A DNA stretch of 64,000 nucleotides from positions 1 through 64,000 of the forward strand of contig JACPUW010000010.1 of assembly GCA_016192035.1 (NCBI GenBank). The letters are read 5' to 3'. A program made the translations under genes and the position numbers. The notes beneath the pieces were generated by a model, which was not told the origin of the DNA, did no database searches, and worked only from the letters and a program-made list of their open reading frames with translations. Positions 5,720 to 14,655 of the stretch are shown here, in pieces (position 1 is the stretch's first letter; each line of letters starts with the position of its first letter). The stretch is from Bacteroidota bacterium (lineage in GTDB: Bacteria > Bacteroidota > Bacteroidia > CAILMK01 > JACPUW01).

Positions 5720-7033
5720 CTAATTGTTGGCCAATGGCTGCATCCTTCTAATAAGCCCCATAATAAGTCCTAAAAAACACAGCATGAGAAACAGCCCGCT
5801 ACATGAAAAAGACCAAAACCACGGGCCTAAGTCCGTCATCATTTCACCAAAGGTTCCCCTATCACTATTTGGGGCCATTTGCCAAATGGCCTTCTGAATG
5901 CCTGCCCCATTGAGCGATAGCCAAAAAACCAAAAGAGAGGCCTGTATCGCCCAAAAAGCCCCAGTCATCCACTTGGGATACACGGAGCCCCCTTTGCCCA
6001 AAAACACAAACACGGCCGCCATTAGCACCATACTGTTAATGCCTATGGTAGTGCCCATGGCATGTGCCACTATAGAGTGTGTGCCATGAAGATACACATT
6101 AACAGCTGGAATACTCAAAAATAACGCATGTACAAGGTTGATTGCCACCCAAATATCAGATGCCAGCAGGAAACGGTACGGAAAAGAGAACCACCTCTGT
6201 CTTCCCACCTCCATGTTCTTGCGCCAGGTCCACATAATTTTTATAAAAATCACCCATTCGGTCATGCTCACGGCATAGCCCACATGCTTTACGTAGTCAG
6301 CTGTGGGTAGGGTATATACATGGTGCCCCCAGTTGAACACCATATTGAAAAAACCGAGGAAATACATGGCAAAGGCCAGGTTGTCCCTGCCCACTTTACG
6401 GTTGCCCGATATTTTATCGGCCAGGTAAAAAGCCGTACCGTACACCAGTTGGTTCCAGGCCCCTACCAGTGTACCGTTCACCTTCCACTGCACTGTCATA
6501 TCTCCTATCAAGTGTTGTCTAAAATAGGGTATTACCCAAAAGTAGTTTTCCATGAAAATTACCAAAAAAAACACCGCGCCGGTAAGCCACATCCACACAT
6601 ACACAGGCCATTGTCCTTTAATGCTCCGTATGGATCTCACCACCACCACTATAAACAGGGCCCAAGCCAGCGCTATGGGCAGTGCCCAGTGGGCCGGAAA
6701 CGACCAATACTCCCTACCTCCATATATGCCAGCGAAATACGACCCAAAAATCCCCACTAGGGCCAGCACCCACAATCCCAATTGTACCCAAGCCCCTGCA
6801 CGCCACACCGAACCTGGACTGAGCTGGTCGAGCGCATAGTACACACTCCCTGTGGCACCGAGTAGGATAAAAAACACCGAAGCACTCTCATGTATGGATC
6901 GTAGGCCAATAAATCCTAGTCCATCTTTTAAGAAATCAGGAAAAAGATATACAAGTGACCCCATATAACCTACCACCAGGCCCAGGGCCAATAAGCACAA
7001 TGAAATCATCAGAAAATACCTTCCTATTCGCAT
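5720..7033 (-). CDS. norB: NorB-like nitric oxide reductase subunit with altered metal ligands
   Basis: A 437-residue, roughly 12-helix membrane protein of the heme-copper oxidase superfamily, closest in layout to the cytochrome-c-dependent NO reductase large subunit. Visible landmarks are His48 (low-spin heme ligand of helix II, RSIHES), GREYWSFP at 106-113, the metal-site pair His237-His238 (GHHVY), Glu259 (equivalent of NorB Glu280, same 21-residue spacing from the His pair) and His324 (high-spin heme ligand, VAHAMG). Three canonical ligands differ: the first FeB His (NorB His207) aligns with Asn186, the FeB Glu (Glu211) with Val190, and the second low-spin heme His (His349) with Met326. 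It lies 3 bases after the NorC-like gene. NO reduction is likely but not certain; an altered reaction or sensing role is possible. Confidence 0.75.
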   Translation of the reverse strand: MRIGRYFLMISLCLLALGLVVGYMGSLVYLFPDFLKDGLGFIGLRSIHESASVFFILLGATGSVYYALDQLSPGSVWRAGAWVQLGLWVLALVGIFGSYFAGIYGGREYWSFPAHWALPIALAWALFIVVVVRSIRSIKGQWPVYVWMWLTGAVFFLVIFMENYFWVIPYFRQHLIGDMTVQWKVNGTLVGAWNQLVYGTAFYLADKISGNRKVGRDNLAFAMYFLGFFNMVFNWGHHVYTLPTADYVKHVGYAVSMTEWVIFIKIMWTWRKNMEVGRQRWFSFPYRFLLASDIWVAINLVHALFLSIPAVNVYLHGTHSIVAHAMGTTIGINSMVLMAAVFVFLGKGGSVYPKWMTGAFWAIQASLLVFWLSLNGAGIQKAIWQMAPNSDRGTFGEMMTDLGPWFWSFSCSGLFLMLCFLGLIMGLIRRMQPLANN

Positions 7034-7036
7034 ATA

Positions 7037-7462
7037 TTATTCATTTTTAGGCGCTATGCTTCCCCAGGCACTTGTAGTAAACTCACGGGGATCAGCCACC
7101 CCAGTAGCATCGGCATGTTTAAAAAAGGCTACGAGTGCACGTTGTTCGCCCGCCGACAGCTCAAACCTGGGCATTTGCCTTGAGCCCACCTGCACCATTG
7201 CCCTTATATAAGCCCCTGCCGTGTCATGCTCCTCATACACATTGGTAAGGTCAGGCCCCAGGTGGCCCCCCAGGCCATATAATTGATGGCAGCTCTTGCA
7301 ACTGTATTTCTGATAGACCATTCGGCCCTGGGCCACTAGGTCGCCCGCACCATCATCCAAGGCCATGTTTCCTGGCAAACACCATATCAAACAGGAATAT
7401 GAAACATAGCACACACACAACAATACAAAGACATATACCGGCCATTTGGCAATCATACGCAC
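7037..7462 (-). CDS. norC: NorC-like membrane-anchored cytochrome c
   Basis: A 141-residue protein with one N-terminal membrane helix (about residues 8-28) and a single c-type heme domain. The heme-binding CKSCH lies at 55-59, followed by the NorC-like segment QLYGLGGHLGPDLTN, and the likely axial Met97 lies in RQMPRF. This matches the small subunit of cytochrome c NO reductase, which feeds electrons to NorB from the periplasmic side. It is 3 bases upstream of the NorB-like gene on the same strand. A start at 7456 (MIAKW) is also possible. Confidence 0.8.
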   Translation of the reverse strand: MRMIAKWPVYVFVLLCVCYVSYSCLIWCLPGNMALDDGAGDLVAQGRMVYQKYSCKSCHQLYGLGGHLGPDLTNVYEEHDTAGAYIRAMVQVGSRQMPRFELSAGEQRALVAFFKHADATGVADPREFTTSAWGSIAPKNE

Positions 7463-7695
7463 ATACTATTTTGGGTGGAAACTGCACCTACCACGCGCAA
7501 ATATTGGCAAACACAGTCATATAGTACCCTTGTCATCCAGGGTGACCGCCGTTCATTGCCGTGGTGTTTTTTTAAAAATTGAGAAATCCCTAGTACAAAT
7601 TCAACAGGGCAAACCTCACTCAGCCAAGTAGAAAGCACCCACCAAGCGGAAGCTACCGCCCTGGCGTACTGGCATTTGGGCAAACTTTCCGTCAT
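7453..7695 (-). CDS. doubtful 80-residue reading frame in the gap before norC
   Basis: The 229-base gap between the membrane-protein gene and norC contains one open frame. Its ATG overlaps the preceding stop codon as ATGA, and it runs 10 bases into norC. That arrangement could mean translational coupling, but the predicted product shows no signal, domain or recognisable family and has an irregular composition. I also find no TAnnTTTG box on this strand in the gap. It may simply be non-coding leader sequence. Confidence 0.2.
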   Translation of the reverse strand: MTESLPKCQYARAVASAWWVLSTWLSEVCPVEFVLGISQFLKKHHGNERRSPWMTRVLYDCVCQYLRVVGAVSTQNSMCV

Positions 7696-8960
7696 GCAGG
7701 CCTTCCTTTAGGCCCCCGGTGGGGCCAAGCCGAGTAGGCCAATCCACCTATCCCCAAGGGAAACAGCATACTCGCAGCAAATAACATCAAGTCCATGCCT
7801 TTTTGAAATCCAACACCTGCCTTTATAAACCAAGTTTGACCAAACAATACTGCTTCTGTAATCACAAAACCTACTATCAACAAAGCCGATCCCCAGGCCA
7901 TTGCCCTTCCTGGGCGCAGCATTCCCTGTGCCAGGGCTACCGCTACCAAGGCCATGCCCACGCCGCCTATCATGCTCAAGTGTATGTGCCCAATCACCAG
8001 GTTGCGGCCCTGGCCCACAGCCTGTGCTATCCAGGGCATGGAAGCCAACAATTGAAACAACGCCCTCATGGCTAAACTAAAAAGGGCCCCCAGCAACAAT
8101 AGCCTGTATGCCCAGCCATGATCCCCAACATATACAATACCCGCCTTTGGCCCGCGCAATAGCCACACCATGCCCACCAGTTGCAATGACATTCCCAAAG
8201 CGTACACAGCCAGCATCCAGCCACGGCCAAAAACCCAGTAAAGGTTGAGGAAATACCCAAACGGCATACCTATGTTGAGCAGTCCAACGCTCCAAAACCT
8301 GCTTGACGACCTAGGCAAACAACTCACTAACAGCGCCATTGCCGCCATCCCCAGCCAACCGTTGAACTGAAAATACAGGAAAAACTGGATACTGCCCTCA
8401 TAGAGCCAGTGCGATTGGCCCAGGCGCACACTTACCGGTGCCAGTGTCCATATGCCCACCGTTGACACAAATTGCCACAACACCGCACTTTTGGCTATGG
8501 AATACCCTAAGGCTTGGCCATTTTTCTTAGCCTTTAGCAAAAAAAAGGCGCAAAACCAGTACGCTGCCACCAGGTGAAGGGTGCTGAATGCTATGCTCAC
8601 AGCCCCATAGCCCTGAACGGAAAAAGCGATAAACATGCCCACCGAGGCCAACACATTAATGGCCAAAATCCACTTTAAGGAATTGCCCTTAAGGTAATTA
8701 TCTAAAAACTGGCGTGCCAGCAAACCCGCTGCGGCGGTAAACCCAAAACCCAGCAAGGCAGTATGTGAGTGCGCATGTATCAAATGGCGGTACGGCCATG
8801 CAATATCAAAAAGAGGATAAGACCGCATGAGGAGCCCCAGTATGGCAGCGGCAACAAAAAGGGCCAATGCCGCAAAGACCCATACCCTTGCATCATGTAC
8901 ACCATTGTTTTTCTGCAAGATATCATGATCGTCCATATGTAGCACATCTTGCTCCTTCAT
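7692..8960 (-). CDS. uncharacterised His-rich multipass membrane protein, heme-copper-oxidase-like
   Basis: A 422-residue polytopic protein with about 12 hydrophobic segments. Its histidines sit where heme ligands lie in heme-copper proteins: RHLIHAHSH (His59, 62, 64, 66) at the start of an early helix, FQFNGW (197-202) in a middle helix, and GHIHLSMIGG (His325, His327) in a late helix. The late motif resembles the His-x-His of NorB helix X and the early one resembles helix II. There is no His-His pair for a copper or FeB site. I read it as a NorB- or NnrS-related heme protein of unknown job. It is 3 bases from nadB, inside the NO cluster. Partnership with the NorB-like subunit is an inference. 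Confidence 0.55.
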   Translation of the reverse strand: MKEQDVLHMDDHDILQKNNGVHDARVWVFAALALFVAAAILGLLMRSYPLFDIAWPYRHLIHAHSHTALLGFGFTAAAGLLARQFLDNYLKGNSLKWILAINVLASVGMFIAFSVQGYGAVSIAFSTLHLVAAYWFCAFFLLKAKKNGQALGYSIAKSAVLWQFVSTVGIWTLAPVSVRLGQSHWLYEGSIQFFLYFQFNGWLGMAAMALLVSCLPRSSSRFWSVGLLNIGMPFGYFLNLYWVFGRGWMLAVYALGMSLQLVGMVWLLRGPKAGIVYVGDHGWAYRLLLLGALFSLAMRALFQLLASMPWIAQAVGQGRNLVIGHIHLSMIGGVGMALVAVALAQGMLRPGRAMAWGSALLIVGFVITEAVLFGQTWFIKAGVGFQKGMDLMLFAASMLFPLGIGGLAYSAWPHRGPKGRPA

Positions 8961-8963
8961 CCT

Positions 8964-10490
8964 TTAGGTATGGCTCGTTTGACCCTGCAATAGATGTTTC
9001 TCCTTAGGCTCAAAACTTTGGTATAGGGCATCTATAAACCCACTGCCTGCCCATAGCAGGTTGGTAAGTTCGCCACCTGCGCCATAGCCCGGCAGACCAA
9101 ACTTGGCCACCTGGCCCCGAAGTTGGTTTACTGCATATAGCCTTTCCTGCACCGCAACGCGGTTATTCCTTTCGCGGTAGGCACCAGTGGTAATGGCCCG
9201 TAGCTGCCTGCGCTTTTCAGAGATCATCCGGTGTAATTTAGCGGTATGTATCGGTACCGCTTGCTCCATTGAAGCCGTGGTACAGTGGTCAAAATCCTGT
9301 GCCAACATATGCACAGCCGTGCGCCGCGCAAACACCACCGCTTCCATTAAAGAATTACTGGCCAATCTATTGGCACCATGAAGCCCCGTGCCCGCGCATT
9401 CGCCCAGGGCATATACCCGGTCTATAGAACTCATACCCCAGGCATCTACTTGTATGCCCCCACACTGGTAGTGTGCGGCTGGCAATACCGGAATGCTTGC
9501 ACCGGCCAGGTCTATTCCCATTTTTTGGCACCTGGTGGTTATGGTTGGGAATTCAGCCTTAAAATCAGCCAAGTCCAAGTGGTTCACCTTAATATGGGCA
9601 AATGGTTCTCCCGTTGCCGATAAATGGTCGTATATGGCATCGGTCACCACATCACGGGTGGCCAACTCGCCCCTCTGGTCGTAGTCAAACAAAAAGCGGC
9701 GGCCCCGACCATCTACCACATGGGCCCCATAACCCCTAACGGCCTCCGAAATAAGGGGCACTTGGCCCATACGTGATTGGTACATTGCCGTGGGGTGAAA
9801 CTGGTAGTACTGAAGGTGTTCTACACGCGCGCCTGCCCGCATGGCCATGGCCAGCCCATCGGCGGTGGCAAAAGGGTGGTTGGTAGTATAGGCAAACATT
9901 TGTCCGCTGCCACCGGTAGCCAGTGCTATGCGCGGCGCCATTGCCGTACGCTCCACCGCATCCCCTTTGCGCACGAACTTCAACCCTATCCCGCCTTTGT
10001 CGTTCAGCAAAAGTTCGGTGGCAAAACAATCTTTTAGCAAGGCCACATTGGCACATCGGCGCACTTTTCCAGCTAGTTTAGCATGTATTTCCTTGCCAGT
10101 AAAGTCTTTATGGTGTACTATCCTGTTGGCCGAATGGCCGCCCTCCCTGTTCAGGTGAAATCCATTTTCATTGGCATCAAAAAGCACCCCCCACCTCACC
10201 AGGTCATTTACCCTGGTGGGAGCCTCATGCACGGCCATGTGCACTATTTCCGGATTGCACAAGCCGCTACCCGCCTTGAGCGTGTCGTGCTCGTGGCTAA
10301 TAAATGAATCGAGTACTTGGTTGGTGACCGCAGCTATGCCCCCTTGTGCCAGCCTTGTATTGCATTGGGGCAAAGCCCCTTTGCTCATTAGCCCAATGGA
10401 AAGCTTGGGCGCCAATTCACTCAAGTAAATGGCCAAGGATAGGCCCGCTATCCCAGTTCCTATGATCAACACATCATACCGATTGTTCAC
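8964..10490 (-). CDS. nadB: L-aspartate oxidase
   Basis: A 508-residue FAD enzyme that oxidises L-aspartate to iminoaspartate, the first step of de novo NAD synthesis. The FAD-binding GTGIAGL lies at residues 11-17, with the family motifs CNTRLAQGGIAAV and NREGGHSANRIVH and the late GANRLASNSL. The length is normal (about 500-540). It follows nadA by 14 bases and precedes the unknown membrane gene by 3 bases. Oxygen or fumarate can serve as electron acceptor in this family, which suits low-oxygen NO-respiring conditions. Its place inside the NO cluster is notable. Confidence 0.93.
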   Translation of the reverse strand: MNNRYDVLIIGTGIAGLSLAIYLSELAPKLSIGLMSKGALPQCNTRLAQGGIAAVTNQVLDSFISHEHDTLKAGSGLCNPEIVHMAVHEAPTRVNDLVRWGVLFDANENGFHLNREGGHSANRIVHHKDFTGKEIHAKLAGKVRRCANVALLKDCFATELLLNDKGGIGLKFVRKGDAVERTAMAPRIALATGGSGQMFAYTTNHPFATADGLAMAMRAGARVEHLQYYQFHPTAMYQSRMGQVPLISEAVRGYGAHVVDGRGRRFLFDYDQRGELATRDVVTDAIYDHLSATGEPFAHIKVNHLDLADFKAEFPTITTRCQKMGIDLAGASIPVLPAAHYQCGGIQVDAWGMSSIDRVYALGECAGTGLHGANRLASNSLMEAVVFARRTAVHMLAQDFDHCTTASMEQAVPIHTAKLHRMISEKRRQLRAITTGAYRERNNRVAVQERLYAVNQLRGQVAKFGLPGYGAGGELTNLLWAGSGFIDALYQSFEPKEKHLLQGQTSHT

Positions 10491-10504: not shown

Positions 10505-11455
10505 TTACACGTGTTGAAGCATGCGTTCAATTGGGCGCAATGCCCGAAGCCTTAGGGATTCTTCAACCTGTATTTCAGGCTGTTCATCTTTAAGGCAGCG
10601 GTACAGTTTTTCCAAGGTATTCATTTTCATAAAAGCACACTCGCTGCACGCACAGGTGTTGTCTTCATTGGCCGGGGCCGGTATAAGCAGTTTTTGGGGC
10701 ACGCGTTTGCGCATTTCATGCAGTATGCCCGCCTCGGTAGCCACTATGAATTCACCCGCACTACTATCTTCCACATACTTAATCATTTTGGCCGTTGAGC
10801 CTATAAATGATGCCATGCGCAGCAGGTGGGGTTCACTTTCAGGGTGGGCTATCACCTTGGCCGAAGGGTATTTCTTGGCCAGGTGTATTAGTTTATCTAT
10901 GCTAAACGCTTCGTGGACCACGCAGCTTCCTTCCCAAAGCACCAAATCCCTGCCGGTTATTTTCATGATGTACTTGCCCAGGTTTTTATCAGGGGCAAAA
11001 ATGATGGGCTGCTCAGGCGGTATGGCATTGATGACCGACACGGCATTGGAACTGGTGCACACATAATCGCTCATGGCCTTGATGTGCGCACTACAGTTGA
11101 TGTAGGTAACCACTACATGGCCCGGGTGCTGGGCTATGAACTTGGCAAAGGCATCGGGAGGGCAGGCATCGGCCAGGGAGCAACCGGCATTGAGATCGGG
11201 CAGTATGACCTTTTTGGTAGGATTCAGGATTTTGGCTGTTTCAGCCATAAAATGCACACCGGCAAACACGATGATATCGGCATTGGTAGTGGCTGCCTTG
11301 CGCGACAGCTCCAAGCTGTCGCCTACAAAGTCAGCAAGGTCCTGAATAGCCTTTTCTTGGTAGTAATGTGCCAAGAGCACGGCTTTCTTTTTTATCAATA
11401 AGTCCTTAATTCCTACAACAAAATCGATTTGTTCCAGTGAAGCAGTTGCGGTCAT
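10505..11455 (-). CDS. nadA: quinolinate synthase
   Basis: A 316-residue [4Fe-4S] enzyme that condenses iminoaspartate with dihydroxyacetone phosphate to give quinolinate. The HYYQ substrate motif is at 30-33. Cluster ligands are probably Cys92 (in LNAGCSLAD), Cys178 (in EGSCVVHE) and one of Cys268, Cys270 or Cys273 in the CACSEC segment. This cluster is of the solvent-exposed three-Cys kind that NO attacks readily. The gene is 4 bases downstream of the unknown 598-residue protein gene and is followed by nadB. Confidence 0.93.
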
Positions 11456-11459
11456 TTCT

Positions 11460-13256
11460 TTATACCAATTGTACGTTCCCGTGCAGCATTAGGGCCATTT
11501 CCTGGATTTTTTCCTCGGCGGCTGTTAAAAAGTCGGCAAAAGCTACCTGCTGTTGGTGGGCTAGGTCAAGCACTGAATCGGCTAAGAGTCCATGATAGTA
11601 ACCTATGGCATTCTTAAGGTTGTCCATGTAGTTACCCAGGCCTTTTACCGCCCGGGCCGTACCGTCAGATTCCATCAACTGGCCTTTGAGATGCTCCAAA
11701 TACAAACCTAATTCCTTGATAAACATATGTGGCCTGTCGGTTCTGGTTATCACATTTGCCCGTCCATATATGTGGTCCACCATTTCTTTAAGGGTCATTT
11801 CCTTTTCGTAATAGGCTATGTTGGGCCCAGGGCATATGGATACCCCTTCACCTTCCTGCTTGGTGTCAAATCCGTGTTCCATAAGGAAAGGCATACCCAA
11901 ACCGGTACAGATGCATGCTTTTTCTATAACCTTTTCATAGGCAGCTTCAAACTGCTCAGCGGTCAGGTCTTGTTCCTTTAGTTCGTTGATTTTCTTATTC
12001 TGATATTGCCTTGACGCCGTACAAATGGGTTTGTCGGTAAACTCCGTATTAAAAGTGAGGTGTTTCTTGGGGCAGGGGCTGCCTGGCCTGCCGGCGTCGG
12101 CCCTTTGAAACTTGTCCAGGTCTTTGGTGTTGCCCCTCATATTGTTCATAATAACACCGAGAGGGGATATATCACTCATATAGAGATCTTCCTCCCTAGC
12201 TTTGGCCAACTGGGTGCGGGTAACCCTGTCCACACAAGTAACTTCAGGTACCAACAGAAATGGGCTGCCCCATCCCACTGAGTCAAGCCCGTATTTGTGT
12301 AAGAGGAATTGGTGCTCTGCCGAGGTGCCTACCCCCCCCTGGGCGGTAAGGGCCATATGTGGGGCTTTCTTGAGTGGGGCCATCCCCCGTTCGGCCAAAG
12401 CGGCGTTGTACATGGGCAACATGGTATCTAGGAGCACGTTGCGGCTTTTGCTAAATTCTTCTAGGATAGGCCCCATTAGATAACCTTCGGTGGCAAAAGC
12501 ATGCCCTCCACAGTTCAAACCCGACTCCACCCTAAACTCAGACACCCAGATACCTTTCTTGGCCAGAAACTTACCCTGAATGAGCGCCGATCTGTAATCG
12601 CTCACCTTAATGGCCACCTTTTTGGTCAATTGGCCTTGCTCATTGGGAAGAAATTGCTGAAAAGTGGCCATATAGCTAAACAAGGCCGGGTTCATACCTG
12701 CCGAAAGCACCAGCATGGCATCTTGTAGGCTCGAATTGGCAAAACCCCTCAATGATGCATGTGCATCGTTGTATTCTCTTGACAACTCCTTGCCTTTGAA
12801 TTCGTTGGTTTTGTCCAACTTAGTCATGATGTTCACCTCTACCCTACCCCTTGTCACTGTATTTCTGGCCAGTTCTATAATTCCTTCGGCATTGCCACTG
12901 GCAGTGAGTTGTTGATACGTACTATAGGCCGCGCTCTCGGTGGGCAATAGGTCCAGAAACTTTATGGCTTCGGCTATGCTGCAGTTTGATTTAAATTCAT
13001 CTACCTGCCGCTGGGTTACATAGTCCACCATGTCCAAAAACGCCTTTACCCGGTTAGACCTGGCTTCGGGATTGTCACTGGGAATAGGGGTGTAAGGAAT
13101 CCCGTATTTCTCGGAGTACACTTTCCTAACCTTGTCGAGAAGGGCGTCGTCCATGATGGATAAAACGGAATTGATGCCGTACTTGGCCACCCTGAGCGGC
13201 GCATCTATGGAATAGGCTATGCCCATTACCGGTATGTGAAAAGTGTGTAAACTCAT
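11460..13256 (-). CDS. uncharacterised 598-residue Cys-rich protein, possible flavin TIM barrel
   Basis: I do not recognise a named family. The N-terminus ([20 protein letters not shown]) and the pair GLNCGGHAF (246-254) and [10 protein letters not shown] (306-315) resemble the layout of nitronate monooxygenase or PfaD-type FMN TIM barrels, where glycine-rich loops bind flavin phosphate. The C-terminal half has conserved-looking cysteines at 395, 412, 448, 450 and 475 (GSPCPKK, PICTAS, ACICTG, SICPGP) that could hold an Fe-S cluster. It has no signal peptide or membrane helix, so it is probably cytosolic. It lies 4 bases from nadA and 183 bases after the RIC gene, inside the NO cluster. A redox or nitro/nitroso-detoxifying role is inference only. 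Confidence 0.6.
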
Positions 13257-13439: not shown

Positions 13440-14171
13440 TTACGCCACGGCTTGACCCTGCATCTGCGCAAAGAGTTCAAGGGCACGTGGAAACAGAATG
13501 TTGTTCTCCAGATGTATGTGGGTATGTAGGTCTTTTTCAAATTCGTCAAGCACGGCAAAAGCTACGCGATAGGTTTGGCAACCATCTGGGGGACAGGTAT
13601 AATTGTTAGTTATGGCGGCTATCTCCCGCAGCCTGGCGCCCTCCACCTCGTGCTCATCTTGCATCATATGTATTGGGTTGTTGATGTGTCCAAAATGTGA
13701 GCTGGGCAATTCGGTGCCATTTTCGAGTGCCCGGCACATGGCCTGGATATAGGGAAACAATATGAGCTCTTCCTTTTTCATGTGCATGGTCAGGTTGCCC
13801 ACAGTTTCTTCAAAAAGATCTCTAATCTGGTGCAGCTCAGGGTGCCTTTCTCCGTGCACACGCGCCAACTTGTCAAGATATGCCCGCAAAATGGGCATCG
13901 TTTGGTTCACGTAACCGTGATGTACGCTCACTATGTGGTCGGCAAGGGCAGACATATCCATGGCTTGATAATCTACGGATTGCGGTTGCGCCAGGGCTAC
14001 TTCAAGTTGGGCTACTACCTCTTGCAGGTTCACAGACTTTTGTGCACAGGCATCGCTCAGTGGAATGCCCCCGTTACAGCAAAAGTCTATGCCATAGGCA
14101 GAAAAGACTTTGGCGGTCTTAAAATTCTTGGCTACTATCTTACTTACTTTGGTGTTTGCTAAGTCTTGCAT
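13440..14171 (-). CDS. ric: iron-sulfur cluster repair di-iron protein (RIC/ScdA/YtfE)
   Basis: A 243-residue RIC protein, which repairs Fe-S and di-iron centres damaged by NO or peroxide. An N-terminal ScdA-type domain (about residues 1-60) carries the typical FCCNGG Cys pair. The C-terminal hemerythrin-like four-helix domain carries the metal-binding histidines, seen in IVSVHHGYV, ERHPELHQI, MHMKKEE, MMQDEHE and THIHLENN. Length and domain order fit the family (about 220-245). It follows the Rrf2 regulator by 28 bases, so the two are almost certainly cotranscribed; RIC under NO-sensing regulators is well known in many bacteria. Confidence 0.92.
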   Translation of the reverse strand: MQDLANTKVSKIVAKNFKTAKVFSAYGIDFCCNGGIPLSDACAQKSVNLQEVVAQLEVALAQPQSVDYQAMDMSALADHIVSVHHGYVNQTMPILRAYLDKLARVHGERHPELHQIRDLFEETVGNLTMHMKKEELILFPYIQAMCRALENGTELPSSHFGHINNPIHMMQDEHEVEGARLREIAAITNNYTCPPDGCQTYRVAFAVLDEFEKDLHTHIHLENNILFPRALELFAQMQGQAVA

Positions 14172-14199: not shown

Positions 14200-14655
14200 T
14201 TAATAATGTACATGTTGTGTTATATCGGCCTCTTCCATTTGCTCTTGGCCTATGAGCTGCCTAAGGTGCGACAAACTGGTATCATCCAGGGTTTTGGCCA
14301 GGAATGCCCTAAGGTTTTCCACTTTGGTGTGTATGGGGCAGGGATTGGCCGATGAACAGACCTTAAATCCCAATACACATCCTGTCATGAGTTTCTGCCC
14401 ATCAATGGCCATGACCACGTCGGCCAGGGTAATTTCATTGGGTTCCGGTATCCTAAACCCTCCTGTCCGCCCCCGTGTGGACTCAAGTAGTCCAGCCTTT
14501 ACCAGCTGCTGTAAAATCTTGGCGGTAAAAGACCTGGGCGAACGGGTAACGGTGGCAATTTCTTCAAGTCCCAAGTAATTGGTACAAAGGTCGCACTGGC
14601 GCGCAGAGATGAATATCATCATCTTAATGGCGTTGGTACAGGTTTTTGAAAACAT
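14200..14655 (-). CDS. Rrf2-family Fe-S transcription regulator, NsrR-like
   Basis: A 151-residue winged-helix regulator of the Rrf2 family. The DNA-binding helix-turn-helix covers about residues 25-60 (LGLEEIATVTRSPRSFTAKILQ), followed by the wing RGRTGGF. Three cysteines with the family spacing, Cys93, Cys100 and Cys106, should ligate a [2Fe-2S] or [4Fe-4S] cluster, as in NsrR and IscR. Sitting at the head of the NO cluster and directly before RIC, it is most likely the NO sensor and repressor of the operon and of its own gene. A perfect palindrome lies between its -33 and -7 regions. IscR-like or other Rrf2 functions are less likely given the neighbours. Confidence 0.82.
   Translation of the reverse strand: MFSKTCTNAIKMMIFISARQCDLCTNYLGLEEIATVTRSPRSFTAKILQQLVKAGLLESTRGRTGGFRIPEPNEITLADVVMAIDGQKLMTGCVLGFKVCSSANPCPIHTKVENLRAFLAKTLDDTSLSHLRQLIGQEQMEEADITQHVHY

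Follow-up and report, generated by a model that had tools for sequence, protein, structure and literature searches.

What is the function of the unnamed protein, here called X, that is encoded beside nadA and the gene for the iron-sulfur cluster repair protein RIC in a 64,000-nucleotide stretch of Bacteroidota DNA (the window), and does this neighborhood connect it with the chemistry of nitric oxide (NO)? The 598-residue open reading frame announced in a preliminary description of this DNA was recovered in full, with its strand corrected to minus; the plus strand across 11460-13256 is full of stops. X and its neighbors are arranged as follows.

14200..14655, minus strand, Rrf2-family regulator (TIGR00738, 84 bits, cut-off 73.3)
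13440..14171, minus strand, RIC, di-iron iron-sulfur cluster repair protein (TIGR03652, 238.8 bits, cut-off 204.7)
11460..13256, minus strand, X, unnamed protein of 598 amino acids (open reading frame including the stop codon)
10505..11455, minus strand, nadA, quinolinate synthase (NCBIfam NF006878, E 8e-132), 4 bases after X
8964..10490, minus strand, nadB, L-aspartate oxidase-like (TIGR00551, E 7.5e-129, slightly below cut-off), 14 bases after nadA
7692..8960, minus strand, multi-pass membrane protein of 422 amino acids (no Pfam, NCBIfam or PDB match)
7037..7462, minus strand, cytochrome c subunit, NorC-like (PF13442, E 1e-9)
5720..7033, minus strand, COX1-superfamily protein, divergent NorB-like (PF00115, E 1.4e-26)

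The linkage of X to nadA and RIC that had been pointed out is real. Rrf2 precedes RIC by 28 bases, RIC sits 183 bases upstream of X, and X is followed by nadA after 4, nadB after another 14 and the membrane protein after another 3 bases, beyond which lie an overlapping small open reading frame, the cytochrome c gene and, separated by a 3-base gap, the NorB-like gene. Since the intergenic gaps on this strand are small, X likely heads an operon whose last two genes form a divergent NO-reductase-like pair. The only PDB sequence match of the COX1-superfamily protein was NO reductase subunit B (4xyd, E 0.003), and no NCBIfam NO-reductase model matched the pair (5720-7462, minus strand), which may represent a divergent type of NO reductase. 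RIC had been read as an NO sensor, but its function is to repair Fe-S clusters; the gene likely to encode the regulator is the Rrf2 gene in front of it, for which the NsrR, IscR and SUF-regulator models all stayed under their cut-offs. The 422-residue membrane protein was encountered near X (and RIC) in 9 of 120 X loci. In the genome of the window (G000), RIC occurs once more in full, and NosZ is encoded as well (contigs C8:52841-53512 and C4:43029-44840), on the basis of which the organism can probably respire N2O.

X is a widespread bacterial enzyme family without a name or a Pfam or NCBIfam model. No family was matched by X in Pfam, NCBIfam, PHROGs or PADLOC, 17 members searched against Pfam yielded no consistent family, sequence searches of the PDB returned chance-level matches only, and nothing was found in viral, plasmid and viral-structure searches. 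While a scan of genome_contigs with the single X sequence missed the family, a scan with the alignment recovered it at no fewer than 592 loci (at least 592); the 80 relatives listed among these belonged to Bacteroidota or to entries bearing the titles Ignavibacteriae, Chlorobiota, Melioribacteraceae and Calditrichota. Of 148 evenly drawn Bacteroidia genomes, 51 contained full-length X, nearly always as a single copy with 42-54% identity. The three motifs named in the preliminary description were all located, IPVMGIA at residue 8, GLNCGGH at 246-252 and QGGVGTS at 306-312, and the five late cysteines are C395, C412, C448, C450 and C475, with C448 and C450 forming a C-x-C pair. Both C249 and H252 fall inside GLNCGGH. 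These two residues and the five late cysteines were invariant in alignments of 17, 50 and 36 members, and the NC-x-GH core was kept in 66/66. With full-length homologues this widespread and H252 and six cysteines invariant, the open reading frame and its linkage are more than chance.

An AlphaFold2 model built from 50 sequences (pLDDT 89.4, pTM 0.89) exhibited the strand-helix order of a TIM barrel spanning approximately residues 6-361. Beta-2 is followed by an insertion of helices (37-133), and the long C-terminal part, likewise helical, bears the five invariant cysteines; H252 follows strand 238-244, with the G-G-H histidine thus at the end of beta-6. Compared with the PDB, the model matched Helicobacter pylori FabX best (E 1.7e-9), followed by PfaD, DfnA, FabK, PA1024 and nitronate monooxygenase (NMO), and nitroalkane oxidase and 2-nitropropane dioxygenase of the same fold superfamily were also among the matches. 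A second model (pLDDT 86), for which a Calditrichota homologue was the lead sequence, placed FabX at ranks 1-5 with a best E of 2.4e-10. Due to the insertions, the rmsd was large (7-14 A over the full alignments), and the structure matches therefore fix the superfamily rather than details. At the sequence level, the motifs of X matched in order those of Bacteroidota NMO-type proteins, including the catalytic-type GGH and the phosphate-loop motifs, and the mean pairwise score to these proteins was 81 versus 60 (SD 4) for shuffled sequences, about 5 SD above. PF03060, the Pfam NMO model, and related curated models did not match X, and an hhalign comparison with a Bacteroidota NMO alignment gave no significant score, which is weak evidence either way as the alignments were shallow and some of the open reading frames mis-picked. 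The flavin-type TIM barrel anticipated in the preliminary description is therefore well backed by both models, whose best PDB matches all belong to one superfamily, and X is very probably a predicted TIM-barrel protein of the NMO/FabK/PfaD/FabX superfamily that would bind FMN. It is highly improbable that this assignment is a modeling artefact, with X being unrelated and some other metal being bound by its cysteines: such a reading could draw on the missing sequence-profile match to any family and on models that rest on alignments of fairly similar sequences, but two high-confidence models, the same superfamily in both structure searches, the ordered motifs and the pairwise scores all argue against it.

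FabX is a decanoyl-ACP dehydrogenase/isomerase of the NMO superfamily that contains FMN and a [4Fe-4S] cluster, the latter bound by C300, C304, C308 and C320, which belong to a C-terminal subdomain found where FabK has its NAD(P)H domain; its H182 is essential, and its homologues occur mostly in microaerophiles and anaerobes (PMC8626469). The X family resembles it in that FabX was the best PDB fold match for two homologues, in having a TIM barrel followed by a C-terminal part that bears cysteines and in carrying a histidine in the corresponding GGH-type motif. The five invariant cysteines of X fall in the part of the chain that corresponds to the FabX Fe-S subdomain, while C249 sits where FabX has S179, counted back from the active-site histidine. 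On the other hand, FabX has 363 residues compared to about 600 in X, to which the large helical insertions belong, and there is no detectable sequence-family match between the two. The FabX spacing C-x3-C-x3-C-x11-C was found in 0/66 X members, which is why X was not filed as FabX. That the late cysteines suggest an Fe-S cluster, as had been proposed, is made plausible by their invariance in the 17- and 50-member alignments, and X probably carries such a cluster with ligands arranged differently from those of FabX. The preliminary description had named two outcomes that would speak against it, a fold lacking a TIM barrel and cysteines that vary among homologues; both were checked and neither was seen. 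The two proteins should also differ in their electron acceptor, as O2 serves FabX in vitro whereas X, an enzyme of an anaerobic regulon, is unlikely to need it.

The genomic company of X was followed across the 148 Bacteroidia genomes. RIC, counted as present where TIGR03652 scored above its cut-off, occurred in 45/51 X-bearing genomes versus 21/97 of the others (odds ratio 27, p 2e-15), and the link held in 20 families with both states, where 0/20,000 within-family permutations reached the observed value. NosZ (odds ratio 4.2) and HemN (odds ratio 2.1) were likewise associated with X, though within RIC-positive genomes neither association was present. No association in the 148 genomes was observed between X and cbb3 oxidase, NrdD or the absence of desaturases; three X-bearing genomes (G044, G076 and G100) lacked both of the desaturase families tested. 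Among 120 X loci (one genome being included twice, as L041 and L140), the most frequent neighbors were nadA/nadB (22-24 loci), RIC (16) and Rrf2 (15), joined by HemN, cbb3, copper-ATPase, NrdD/NrdG, NorB/NorC-like and truncated globin genes. The connection to RIC and NO-reductase-like genes noted in the window thus extends across genomes. No FAS-II gene was a consistent neighbor in these loci, and a fatty acid desaturase lay immediately upstream of X in just two lineages (L140 and L071). The former exhibited the order Rrf2, a small gene, globin, RIC, ferredoxin-like gene (fdx_isc, E 4e-4), hemerythrin-like gene, fatty acid desaturase, X, nadA and nadB (L140:4383-12666), which is likely an NO-response unit, while the latter reads desaturase, X, RIC, and L141 reads RIC, X, nadA, nadB. 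The compact L140 operon includes two more unnamed small proteins (96 and 107 amino acids).

A shared operator ties these genes together. When the 300 bases upstream of X were scanned with up to one mismatch, the palindrome TATGAYNNNNRTCATA was detected in 35/120 loci compared to 1.7 expected, mostly 64-150 bases ahead of the start of X. In X loci it also preceded RIC, nadA, norC-like, hemN, copper ATPase and Rrf2 genes, and a scan of one genome returned nine exact sites including those of X and RIC; two of the genes at these nine sites look by eye like 2-oxoacid:ferredoxin oxidoreductases. Neither the classic FNR motif (TTGAT-N4-ATCAA) nor that of CRP showed clear enrichment in front of X. TATGAYNNNNRTCATA has the form of a Crp/Fnr box, and the nearest published motif found was the DNR box, CTTGATnnnnATCAAG (PMC1274295). 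As in the DNR/FNR denitrification regulons, an FNR-box-like 16-bp palindrome stands before NO, RIC and hemN genes, but the half site of the X operator is TATGAY instead of CTTGAT, and its regulator, putatively, would be of Crp/Fnr form. Computation thus shows that X belongs to a low-oxygen/NO regulon of Bacteroidota. The 64-kb window itself contained no TATGAYNNNNRTCATA site with up to one mismatch; the nearby Rrf2 regulator may take over there.

What X does within this regulon can be approached from the fold. Our best reading, tentative and somewhat short of an even bet, is a new family of FMN TIM-barrel enzymes with a C-terminal Fe-S cluster, FabX-like and active in the low-oxygen/NO regulon; FMN, cluster, substrate, direction and acceptor are what we infer from the comparisons above. 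It is possible, with slightly less assurance, that X acts on acyl thioesters. In that case H252 would abstract a proton from the acyl-thioester substrate and FMN would accept a hydride from it, a dehydrogenation perhaps combined with isomerization as in FabX, and the cluster on the late cysteines would store the electrons and relay them one by one to an acceptor that is not O2 and might be a ferredoxin. Unsaturated acyl chains could then be made when the O2-dependent di-iron desaturases are without O2 or poisoned by NO, just as HemN and NrdD in the regulon substitute for other O2- or di-iron-dependent steps. Making unsaturated acyl chains by a route independent of oxygen and NO would be in keeping with a regulon that replaces such steps and with the desaturase directly upstream of X in two lineages. 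In its most specific form the proposal is doubtful: X would be the enzyme by which denitrifying and facultative Bacteroidota synthesize unsaturated acyl chains, tolerant of NO and independent of oxygen, with cluster ligands unlike those of FabX and ferredoxin as acceptor, and it would replace the di-iron desaturases when these are disabled by NO or anoxia.

The same fold would serve the opposite direction, with X as an anaerobic enoyl-type reductase or another lipid or cofactor redox enzyme, PfaD-like and supplied by reduced ferredoxin through its cluster. PfaD, DfnA and FabK, all enoyl reductases, rank next after FabX, and a ferredoxin-like gene is part of the L140 operon; yet no polyketide or PUFA synthase gene adjoined X in the 120 loci, a sequence does not reveal reaction direction, and we consider this rather unlikely. 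PfaD and the trans-AT enoyl reductases (DfnA, MlnA) are similar in length (about 440-530 residues) and gave the second-best fold matches, but they are linked to polyketide or PUFA synthases and X is not, and to our knowledge invariant Fe-S-type cysteines are not expected in them. The nitro, nitroso or nitronate substrates suggested in the preliminary description found no backing: the best structural match was FabX, the Pfam NMO model did not match and no neighbor pointed to such compounds. That X is a flavin/Fe-S reductase or oxidase detoxifying them under nitrosative stress would agree with the NMO, nitroalkane oxidase and 2-nitropropane dioxygenase folds in its superfamily, with RIC, which repairs NO damage, as by far its strongest genomic partner, and with its position in one directon with NorB/NorC-like genes. 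NMO, the NADH:quinone reductase PA1024 and FabK share the barrel, the motif order and the active-site GGH with X, but are half its size and cluster-free and gave a weaker fold match, FabX being ahead of NMO by about 3-4 orders of magnitude in E-value in both structure searches. As we know of no NMO with an Fe-S domain, as no gene for nitro compounds was linked to X in the loci, and as the operator also precedes anaerobic housekeeping genes such as hemN, so that NO chemistry is not required, this detoxifying role is unlikely. Support of NAD synthesis under anoxia or NO, for instance with X as an electron-acceptor partner of NadB or as a protein that keeps the NadA Fe-S cluster active, is more improbable still. 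It would account for nadA/nadB being the commonest neighbors, for the 4-base gap in the window and for the operator before nadA in several loci where nadA forms a separate unit, but most X loci have no nadAB nearby, many of the linked cases come from one family, and the linkage has a simpler explanation in nadA being part of this regulon too.

Under the FabX-like reading, X would add a second branch with an Fe-S cluster to the superfamily, in which FabX has been described as the sole cluster-containing enzyme of fatty acid synthesis. Should the substrate be an acyl thioester, this would explain how membranes are adjusted without oxygen and under NO; should it be another compound, X would still count as a new Fe-S enzyme linked to RIC and as a candidate for repair by it. 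A physiological parallel is offered by Neisseria gonorrhoeae NGO1024, which according to PMC11300592 is homologous to FabX (about 36% identity) and required to make unsaturated fatty acids in the absence of oxygen; unlike X, it is a direct homologue of FabX.

Further arrangements were seen at individual X loci. At L144:5400-13000 and L145, a 413-residue gene that by eye resembles the U32 family (UbiU/TrhP-type) is oriented divergently from X, and a nearby 870-residue gene is also preceded by the TATGAYNNNNRTCATA operator. At L033:4249-5628, L034 and L158, a gene of tyrosine phenol-lyase/tryptophanase type stands beside X and NorC/NorB-like genes, and at L034 the operator is found at the locus of this gene as well.
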